DNA from: Alphaproteobacteria bacterium
GTDB lineage: Bacteria > Pseudomonadota > Alphaproteobacteria > CACIAM-22H2
DNA: 64,000 bases
Assembly: GCA_016793165.1 (NCBI GenBank)
Contig: JAEULA010000079.1
Coordinates: forward strand, 1 to 64,000
Reading direction: 5' to 3'
The notes beneath the pieces are model-generated. The model was not told the DNA's origin. It searched no databases and worked only from the letters and a program-made list of their open reading frames with translations. The translations under genes and the position numbers were made by a program. This document shows positions 1,426 to 5,773 of this stretch, in pieces (within the stretch, counting starts at the first letter, position 1; each line of letters begins with the position of its first letter).

Positions 1426-3240
1426 ATGCCCAGCTTCGAACCGACAAGCCTCCAGCAGGCCCTGGCCGCGAGCATCTTCGTGGTCACCCTCGCGGCGTTC
1501 GTCTGGGATCGCATCCGCTACGACATCGTCGCGATGCTTGCGCTGCTCGCTTGCGTCGGGCTCGGCCTCGTCGCGCCCGACAAGGCATTCGACGGCTTCG
1601 GCAATCCGGCGGTCGTCACCGTCGCCGCGGTGCTCGTGCTGAGCCACGCGCTGGTGCGCAGCGGCGTGGTGCAGGCGCTGGGCGAGCGTGTCGAAGCAGT
1701 GGCCGTGGAGCCCTGGCAGCGCATCGCGCTGCTCTGCACCGTCGGGGCCACGCTGTCCGCCTTCATGAACAACGTCGGCGCGCTCGCCGTCGTCATGCCG
1801 ATCGCCATCACCATGGCCCGGCGCAGCGGCACGTCGCCGGCGCTGATGCTGATGCCGCTGTCGTTCTCGACGATGCTCGGCGGGACGATCACGCTGATCG
1901 GCACGCCGCCCAACCTGCTCGCGTCGGCGGCGCGGGCGCGCTACGGCGAGGCACCGTTCGGGTTCTTCGACTTCACCCCCGTCGGGTTCGCGATCACCGT
2001 CGCCGGAATCGCGTTCATGGTCGTCGCGGCACGGTTCGTGCTGCCCGCCGACCGCGCCGCCAGGCCGTCCGGGATGGAGCTGTTCGACGTCGGCCACTAC
2101 GTCACCGAGCTGCGCATCCCCGAGGGCTCGGCCTGGATCGGGGCGACCGTCGAGGCGCTGGAGACCGAGCACGCCGACCGCCTGCTCGTCGTCAAGCTGC
2201 TGCGCAGCGGACTGAGCATGCGCCGCCGCCTCGCCGATCGCGCGCTGGTCGCCAACGACCTGCTGATCGTCCAGGCCGAGGCCGAGCTGCTGCAGGAGCT
2301 CGCGCGCAAGGGCGTGCTCGAGATCGCGGCCGCCCATGGCAGCGACGGCGAGAAGGCGCCGCTCGGCCCGCCGGGCGGCGTCGAGACGGTGGAGGTCGTC
2401 GTGCCGCCCAACAGCTGGCTGCAGGGCCAGACCGCGCGGCGACTCAATCTTCGCACCCGCTGGAGCGTCAACCTGCTCGCGCTGTCGCGCAAGGGCCGGC
2501 CGCTCGCGACGCGACTGCGCGACGCGCCGATCTTCGCCGGCGACGTCCTGCTGCTCGAAGGCGACCCGGACTCGCTCGCCGAGTCCGTCCGCGAGCTCGG
2601 CTGCCTGCCGCTTGCCGATCGCCGCATCGCCTTCGAGCCGTTCCGGCTGCTGCTGCCGATCGCGGTCTTCGCCACCGCGATCGTCGCGGTCGCGACCGGG
2701 CTGGCCGGTGCCGCCGTCGCCTTCGCGGCGGCGGCGGTGGCGGTCGTGCTGCTGCGCATCGTGCCCGCGCGCGAGCTCTACACGGCGATCGACTGGCCGA
2801 TCATCGTGCTGCTCGGCGCGATGATTCCCGTGGGCGGCGTCCTCGAGGCGACCGGACTCGCCGACCTCCTGGCGGGGAGGGTCGCCGGGTTGAGCTCCGT
2901 GCTGCCGTCCTGGGGGCTCCTCGCCGTCGTGCTGATCGCGACGATGGCGATCACGCCGATGCTCAACAACGCCGCGACCGTGATCGTGATGGCGCCGATC
3001 GCGATCGGCATCGCCCAGTCGCTTGGCCTGAACCCGGACGCCTTCGTCATGGCCGTGGCGATCGGCGCGAGCTGCGATTTTCTCACGCCCTTCGGCCATC
3101 AGAACAACACGCTCATCCTGGCCGCCGGCGGATACCGCTTCGCGGATTTCTGGCGGCTCGGCCTGCCGCTCGACTTCGTGATCGTCGCGACGGCGATCCC
3201 GGTGCTGCTGCTCGTCTTCCCGCTGGGCGGTGCCGGGTGA
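1426..3240 (+). CDS. SLC13/DASS-family membrane transporter with two RCK-C (TrkA-C) domains
   Basis: 604 aa. N-terminal membrane half (residues about 10-210) carries the NNVGAL and GTPPNLLAS motifs of the SLC13/ArsB-NhaD ion transporter superfamily. Two TrkA-C domains follow (about 230-300 and 320-400). The C-terminal membrane half repeats the pattern (ITPMLNNAATV, GASCDFLTPFGHQNN). This is the layout of Na+-coupled sulfate or dicarboxylate-type permeases. The substrate cannot be told from sequence. The TrkA-C domains suggest gating by a small ligand. No Shine-Dalgarno is visible upstream of the ATG, and an EcfG promoter -10 lies 12 nt before it, suggesting a leaderless stress-induced mRNA. 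No alternative nearby ATG was seen. Confidence 0.88.
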   Translation: MPSFEPTSLQQALAASIFVVTLAAFVWDRIRYDIVAMLALLACVGLGLVAPDKAFDGFGNPAVVTVAAVLVLSHALVRSGVVQALGERVEAVAVEPWQRIALLCTVGATLSAFMNNVGALAVVMPIAITMARRSGTSPALMLMPLSFSTMLGGTITLIGTPPNLLASAARARYGEAPFGFFDFTPVGFAITVAGIAFMVVAARFVLPADRAARPSGMELFDVGHYVTELRIPEGSAWIGATVEALETEHADRLLVVKLLRSGLSMRRRLADRALVANDLLIVQAEAELLQELARKGVLEIAAAHGSDGEKAPLGPPGGVETVEVVVPPNSWLQGQTARRLNLRTRWSVNLLALSRKGRPLATRLRDAPIFAGDVLLLEGDPDSLAESVRELGCLPLADRRIAFEPFRLLLPIAVFATAIVAVATGLAGAAVAFAAAAVAVVLLRIVPARELYTAIDWPIIVLLGAMIPVGGVLEATGLADLLAGRVAGLSSVLPSWGLLAVVLIATMAITPMLNNAATVIVMAPIAIGIAQSLGLNPDAFVMAVAIGASCDFLTPFGHQNNTLILAAGGYRFADFWRLGLPLDFVIVATAIPVLLLVFPLGGAG

Positions 3241-3285
3241 CCGGGGCGATCCGAGCCGCAGCGGCGAATATTCGCATGGCCGCCG

Positions 3286-3310
3286 GGAACCTATCGCGTG
3301 TCCGGCGGTT
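3286..3310 (+). promoter_or_regulatory. Near-consensus EcfG-type promoter of a candidate sRNA
   Basis: GGAAC at 3286-3290, 16 bp, GGTT at 3307-3310 (one mismatch to CGTT). It lies in a 232-bp gene-free gap and points to a terminator at 3424-3461. Confidence 0.45.
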
Positions 3311-3316
3311 GTTCGT

Positions 3317-3461
3317 TCGTGCGACGCCCCTGTCCGCGTCGCAGTGGATCCCGGCCGGCCCTCTCTCCCCGGATCAGGATCTGGAGCCGAGTGTGGCGGC
3401 GGCAGTGCCGTTCCTCGGAGCCTGGGCCCGGTGCGTTCCCCCTCCCGCACCGGGCCCTTTT
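3317..3461 (+). ncRNA. Candidate general-stress-regulated small RNA with a C-rich loop
   Basis: The gap between the transporter stop (3240) and the convergent transglycosylase gene (3473) has a near-consensus EcfG promoter, about 145 nt without a convincing ORF, a small hairpin (arms 3387-3391 and 3414-3418) and a strong intrinsic terminator. The terminator loop is TTCCCCCTCC, an exposed C-rich stretch able to pair with Shine-Dalgarno sequences. Caulobacter GsrN, a stress-sigma-controlled sRNA, also acts through a C-rich loop; similarity here is by analogy only. The 5' end is estimated from the promoter position. The alternative is simply a distant terminator for the transporter mRNA. Confidence 0.42.
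3424..3461 (+). terminator. Rho-independent terminator
   Basis: A 12-bp perfect GC-rich stem (3424-3435 with 3446-3457), a 10-nt C-rich loop and a TTTT run at 3458-3461. It ends either the candidate sRNA or read-through from the transporter gene. Confidence 0.88.
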
Positions 3462-3472
3462 CGTATGCGCCG

Positions 3473-4105
3473 TCAGCGACGCGCGCCATCGCGCAGCAGC
3501 GGCGGAACGCTGGCCGCCGCCGCGTCGTCCTGCGCCGCCTTCACCCGACGGAACGTCTCGCTCACCGCGGCGACGTAGCGCTGCGCGCGGCGCGGATCGG
3601 CGGAGTGATACCGGCCGACGCCGGCCCAGACGTCGCCGTCCTCGGCGGCGATCGCCTCGGCAAGGATCCGCGCCGCGATGCGGATGTTGGTCGCGGGGTC
3701 GAGCAGCGCCGCCGCCGACGCGACGCGGCCACGGTGAAAGCCGAGGTTGACCTGCATCGGGCCGACATCGAGGCGCCCGTCATGCCCCCAGCTTGCCAGC
3801 ACGCGCCGTGCCGCGTCGGCGTCGGCGGCGTAGACGGGACCGCGCGGCGTGTTGATGGCATAGGGCCACGGCCGCAGGCGGTGCTCCGGATCGCCGCGCC
3901 CCGATTCGTGGACGCCGATCGCGTAGAGGATCAGCGGATCGAGCCCATGGGCCGCGGCGGCGCTTTGCCAGGCGACATGGCCGGGATCGGCGATCGCGAT
4001 CCCGGCGTCGCCGGCGCGCGCCGGCGCGAGCTCCAGGAACGAGGGCGCTGCAGCCATGACGACCAGGGCGACAGGCAGGCGCACGAGGAAGCGCCGATTG
4101 ATCAT
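3473..4105 (-). CDS. Lytic transglycosylase, SLT-domain family
   Basis: 210 aa. A signal-peptide-like N terminus (residues 1-31) precedes a transglycosylase SLT-type domain (about 42-190). The catalytic glutamate is probably E67 in the IGVHESGRG motif; DVGPMQVN and VGRYHS motifs also fit. Such enzymes cleave peptidoglycan glycan strands with anhydro-muramic acid formation, in the periplasm. It resembles the short VirB1/PilT-associated type but no secretion apparatus lies beside it. It follows the DUF883/membrane protein pair on the same strand after 90 bp. No EcfG-type promoter was found directly upstream. Confidence 0.85.
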   Translation of the reverse strand: MINRRFLVRLPVALVVMAAAPSFLELAPARAGDAGIAIADPGHVAWQSAAAAHGLDPLILYAIGVHESGRGDPEHRLRPWPYAINTPRGPVYAADADAARRVLASWGHDGRLDVGPMQVNLGFHRGRVASAAALLDPATNIRIAARILAEAIAAEDGDVWAGVGRYHSADPRRAQRYVAAVSETFRRVKAAQDDAAAASVPPLLRDGARR

Positions 4106-5614: not shown

Positions 5615-5773
5615 ATGACGAGCACAAACCTCGTTCGAATCATTCCCGCGGCCGCAGTCGTCGCGCTGGGCATTCTCGCCGGTTGCAATACCGTCGAAGG
5701 CGCCGGCAAGGACGTCGAGCGCGGCGCCGAGAAGGTCCAGGACGCGGCCCGGGACGTGAAGCAGAAGCTCTGA
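5615..5773 (+). CDS. Entericidin A/B-family lipoprotein
   Basis: 52 aa. A hydrophobic signal (residues 10-22) leads to the lipobox LAGC with the lipidated Cys at 24, then the helical tail [20 protein letters not shown] typical of entericidins. Entericidin B is a small membrane lipoprotein under stress sigma control in enterobacteria. AGGAGG precedes the ATG by 4 nt. An exact EcfG-type promoter lies upstream, so stress control is well supported here. Confidence 0.92.

Follow-up and report, generated by a model that had tools for sequence, protein, structure and literature searches.

Between a gene for a CitMHS/TrkA-C transporter (1426-3240, + strand) and a convergent gene for an SLT-domain, lytic transglycosylase-like protein (3473-4105, - strand) lies the intergenic stretch considered here; "the window" denotes the whole 64-kb stretch of DNA that was analysed. 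The general stress response (GSR) regulator gene phyR is located at 58-852 on the + strand, with PhyR sigma-like and receiver domains above the Pfam cut-offs, and CsbD, DUF1328 and entericidin genes, reaching position 5770, belong to the same locus. Six consensus EcfG boxes with CGTT occur in the first 6 kb, each with a start codon 11-67 nt to its 3' side, among them the transporter's own box (1390-1414, 11 nt upstream of the start). In the window as a whole, GGAAC-N16/17-GTT was found nine times against 1.54 occurrences expected, and contig C65 of the same genome carries a second cluster of EcfG-like boxes together with an ECF-type sigma-factor gene (sigma-70 regions 2 and 4). Because of PhyR, the CsbD, DUF1328 and entericidin genes, the boxes in front of start codons and the cluster with the sigma-factor gene on C65, the locus is, as far as sequence tells, a general-stress-response region, in line with the preliminary description, which placed its candidate RNA among stress-controlled genes.

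In the same-genus genomes G001-G003 no full-length PhyR match was obtained, only weak matches (best E 1.7e-6), and the contamination rating of the assembly itself is 7.84 %. For these two reasons the window's contig, C1, may be misbinned; despite this concern its 4-mer usage is near that of the other contigs (correlation 0.964-0.983).

Terminator, predicted loops and coding potential

The proposed noncoding transcript would comprise about 148 nt (3317-3464, + strand), the start being placed by promoter spacing and the end by the terminator. As had been described, this terminator is a strong intrinsic one with a C-rich loop: an inverted repeat also recovered by the hairpin scan (3424-3461, + strand), its GC-rich 12-bp arms (3424-3435/3446-3457) are 100 % complementary, enclose the 10-nt loop TTCCCCCTCC (3436-3445) and are followed by TTTT. 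It is the sole hairpin of at least 8 bp with a T-tail found in the 64 kb, and one of 25 terminator-like hairpins in 905,631 sampled bases of the genome, five of which lie inside genes according to gene calls. Loops of the 24 others are at most 5 nt long in 18 cases and none of the six longer ones is all-pyrimidine, which leaves the candidate terminator as the only one of the 25 with a long all-pyrimidine loop. Among the other hairpins outside genes (n = 19), 12 start 17-89 nt past a same-strand stop and the remaining seven at least 182 nt from one; the candidate terminator stands 184 nt past the transporter stop.

Three more hairpins are predicted on the + strand upstream of the terminator, the first, an inverted repeat with 8 bp, at 3320-3343 (loop CCCTGTCC), the second at 3346-3382 with the all-pyrimidine loop CCCTCTCTCC (3359-3368) and the third at 3383-3422 with the loop GCAG, which is not C-rich. 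Two of the four predicted loops (CCCTGTCC, CCCTCTCTCC, GCAG, TTCCCCCTCC) are C-rich; at least two such loops arose in 6 of 1000 dinucleotide shuffles, a criterion chosen post hoc with the sequence already seen. The fold with the terminator included is strong, with a z-score of -3.4 owed mostly to the terminator, and the body without it a z-score of -1.19, with 23 of 200 shuffles folding equally well. No open reading frame of at least 20 amino acids is contained in 3241-3472 on the + strand, where long frames only pass through, in agreement with the initial statement that none was present. A small protein was considered and rejected, as the GTG frames inside the candidate that are preceded by a Shine-Dalgarno (SD) sequence continue past the terminator.

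The claim that the terminator loop is suited to pairing with ribosome-binding sites was borne out in so far as 19 of 151 SD-bearing leaders of the sampled genome contained a complement to it of at least 6 nt, compared with six for the reversed loop and 11 for a 16S anti-SD sequence of the same length. Pairing of the loop is thus predicted to be possible with ribosome-binding sites at large, and no individual mRNA emerged as its target from these 151 leaders.

The promoter-like site and its overlapping hairpin

Upstream of the proposed start, GGAAC-N16-GGTT (GGAACCTATCGCGTGTCCGGCGGTT) is found at 3286-3310 on the + strand, and a perfect 12-bp palindrome, GCGAATATTCGC (window 3264-3275), is situated a short way 5' of it. 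The site had been called a near-consensus EcfG promoter, which holds for the exact GGAAC, but its -10 element reads GGTT where CGTT is expected. Genome-wide, the CGTT form is clearly distinguished from a reversed control pattern (134 versus 41), whereas the GGTT form is hardly enriched (49 versus 34). A weight matrix was built from 21 of 22 listed consensus sites, one without upstream sequence being left out; the site scored 12.6, and left-out consensus sites scored 8.7 to 22.1, 20 of 21 of them higher, by a matrix that is biased to CGTT because its sites were selected as exact matches. Only 18 of 1,584,480 background positions reached the score of the site. For Sphingomonas melonis, GGAAC-N17-20-GTT is given as the motif of EcfG, and some EcfG-dependent genes are reported with GGTT (PMC6599016), and GGTT therefore does not exclude EcfG control. 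Since the next gene is convergent, a + strand promoter at this position has no gene to drive ahead of the terminator.

The preliminary description mentioned neither the second all-pyrimidine loop (3359-3368) nor an inverted repeat overlapping the promoter boxes, CCGCCGG (3280-3286) and CCGGCGG (3302-3308), which is followed by the T-rich tail TTGTTCGTT. With a stem extended by G-U pairs the hairpin covers 3276-3312 (+ strand), with the T-rich region at and past its end, and folds with -18.9 kcal/mol, and it is a candidate terminator of the transporter mRNA. This hairpin is the strongest argument for the main rival explanation, in which the stretch is a plain 3' UTR of the transporter: 3276-3312 would either terminate transcription weakly, ahead of 3424-3461, or stabilise the 3' end, 3424-3461 would be a strong back-up against read-through into the convergent gene, and the promoter-like boxes would be a by-product of the inverted repeat. 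Repeat and T-rich tail together arose in none of 1000 shuffles of 3241-3340, the repeat begins 40 nt and the extended stem 36 nt past the transporter stop, distances that fall among the 17-89 nt seen for 12 of the 19 other hairpins outside genes, and the GG of GGAAC and that of GGTT both sit in or at the arms of the hairpin. However, some of the T-rich tail is taken up by the stem in the best fold, the strong terminator is unusual in its loop and stands 184 nt past the stop, and GGAAC-N16/17-GTT is itself rare, arising in 0.1 % of 2000 shuffles of the intergenic stretch. This explanation is quite possible, though less likely than not.

Distinctly improbable, by comparison, is that an RNase cuts the RNA from the transporter mRNA and that its C-rich loops then act by pairing. 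The presence of such loops and the consensus EcfG box at 1390, 11 nt before the transporter start, would suit a processed RNA of this kind, and 3'-UTR-derived sRNAs are known in alphaproteobacteria, with UdsC described as one in Rhodobacter, but a plausible promoter is present at the right distance.

Conservation and other C-rich-loop elements

Conservation in related genomes, which had been proposed as a check, spoke against the candidate: a DNA search of 96 relatives and 385 genomes of the class, in which few candidates were scored per genome, yielded no homologue. Matches with E <= 0.001 came from three of the 96 relatives and four of the 385 class genomes, the own genome being counted in each. 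Among the short matches rejected as homologues, L119 and L120 lie in open reading frames, L119, which spans the promoter, lacking the GTT; L002 and L003 were likewise rejected, these having been read without a systematic gene call. A single-sequence covariance model, searched against the 385 class genomes with strict filters and few candidates scored per genome, returned the own genome and two weak matches at chance level (E 0.084 and 0.179). Against three ar14-like loci the same model gave E 0.0005 to 0.002 and against locus L208 0.042, but the ar14 search had already selected these four for their C-rich loops. Regarding synteny, the closest transporter found, that of Stella vacuolata (62 %), is followed by ABC-transporter-like genes without such an element.

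Ten stretches were compared, namely the window's first 9 kb, three of contig C65 and six around phyR in five other genomes, and in them no EcfG-like site but that of the candidate preceded a C-loop hairpin with a T-tail. None of the six phyR neighbourhoods held this combination, which is weak evidence because the relatives are distant (PhyR identity 42-54 %); G026 has one EcfG-like site with a C-loop hairpin that lacks a T-tail. That the terminator alone is functional and promoter and C-rich loops are accidents of a genome with 70 % GC is highly improbable, for although DNA searches and covariance model found no conservation and about 1.5 such promoter-like sites are expected per window, terminator and boxes are jointly improbable by chance.

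Further C-loop elements were encountered. L208 (G000:C2:23375-23465, - strand) consists of a hairpin whose loop has 11 Cs, with an TTTTCTTTTC tail, downstream of a TTGACT-N17-ATATCA-like promoter, between neighbours that, judged from their translations, are a hydrolase-like and an exonuclease-like gene; it gives this genome another candidate for a C-loop sRNA. At L206 (G000:C92:11978-12082) two C-rich-loop hairpins without a T-tail lie between convergent frames. An RNA-like element with three hairpins, long C-rich loops and a T-tail is common to three same-family genomes (L178, L179, L180; 42-44 bits against ar14, under the cut-off), and L176 (G044:C1:245431-245802) is a tandem array of CCTCCTCCC hairpins that looks like successive copies of CcsR1 and ar14.

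A possible stress-controlled sRNA and its closest known counterparts

The candidate as an EcfG-controlled sRNA with C-rich loops and its own promoter stands at about an even chance. In this mechanism PhyR would release the GSR sigma factor, the noncoding RNA of about 148 nt would be transcribed from the EcfG-type promoter at 3286-3310 and would end at the terminator, and its exposed pyrimidine loops, chiefly UUCCCCCUCC with its anti-Shine-Dalgarno core CCUCC, would pair with purine-rich ribosome-binding sites and thereby alter translation or stability of several mRNAs under stress; from the observed sequence elements, GSR locus and rare loop we infer transcription, start site, EcfG dependence, targets and direction of regulation. 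The reading is supported by the GSR locus, a putative promoter without a gene, the rare loop, the presence of two C-rich loops, the comparison of ten stretches, the matches in SD leaders, the GGTT boxes of S. melonis and the match to the ar14 profile, and it is weakened since GGTT is hardly enriched, the matrix score is low, no homologue was found, the body folds with z -1.2 and the boxes overlap a hairpin. Judged by its anatomy, with which it is compatible, and by good precedents at the same type of locus, a GSR-controlled C-rich-loop sRNA appears plausible. If real, it would be a further RNA arm of the alphaproteobacterial general stress response, encoded beside its regulator, and would make it possible to ask whether RNAs of this kind have a common function although their sequences differ; if the stretch is a mere 3' UTR, GC-rich hairpins can mimic EcfG promoters, which calls for caution in promoter scans.

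In the window no Rfam family scored as high as its cut-off. With the threshold relaxed, the best family was ar14 (RF02344), with 26.9 bits against a gathering cut-off of 58.8 (E 0.0019 for the stretch); in the genome-wide search the candidate (E 0.0137) was second of four matches. Two other places in the genome score similarly (27.8 bits, the genome's best ar14 score, at L206, and 25.7 bits), so that the model responds to C-rich hairpins generally; nine of 14 control genomes also match at E <= 10 in the genome-scale search, and in a search of 143 genomes 54 matched at E <= 10, none above the cut-off, with four of 14 controls. In ar14, CCUCCUCCC is reported in each of three hairpins, under an RpoD-type promoter (PMC10746234, PMC3927594). 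The terminator shows the highest sequence agreement in the alignment, the first two hairpins lack CCUCCUCCC, no loop of the candidate carries it and the CCUCC core occurs in one loop; because ar14 is defined by its three CCUCCUCCC loops, and as the score is below the cut-off, membership was rejected. The candidate may nevertheless work like ar14. It resembles NfeR1/ar14 in that anti-SD loops sit on its hairpins, the terminator among them, and in a weak full-length profile match, but differs in the lack of CCUCCUCCC loops and in its putative EcfG-type instead of RpoD-type promoter. CcsR1, sX13 and ErsA, which are C-rich-loop sRNAs, gave weak profile matches covering the C-rich terminator loop (E 0.17 to 1.5, far under the cut-offs), a feature in common and not homology.

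EcfG-driven noncoding RNAs beside phyR are already described, namely ReC64 and GsrN-like RNAs. ReC64 of Rhizobium etli, likened here by description, is an EcfG1-driven, intergenic noncoding RNA at the phyR locus; the candidate shares the location and may share the type of promoter, but ReC64 has 88 nt, a consensus promoter and a mapped start (PMC3892343). The search for GsrN-like RNAs relied on transcription, on an EcfG site close to consensus and on a position near the GSR locus (PMC5869019); the candidate lies 2.4 kb from phyR, and its promoter nearly corresponds. The likeness to Caulobacter GsrN drawn in the preliminary description stands for the C-rich loop and the nearness to phyR/ecfG that is usual in these RNAs, may extend to the EcfG/SigT-type promoter, and is less close in loop position: GsrN bears its C-rich loop, with six tandem Cs, in the 5' half (PMC5869019), whereas the 5' loops of the candidate are CCCTGTCC and CCCTCTCTCC and the terminator loop holds its longest run of Cs (5). 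The comparison, made by described features, is functional only, and the richest loop in the terminator is more like NfeR1/ar14. Rather unlikely, but worth naming, is that an EcfG-driven anti-Shine-Dalgarno sRNA here combines GsrN-type control with ar14-type loops, including that of the terminator, by separate origin and with no sequence homologues, in which case GSR RNAs with C-rich loops would have arisen beside phyR more than once and would not go back to one ancestral gene.
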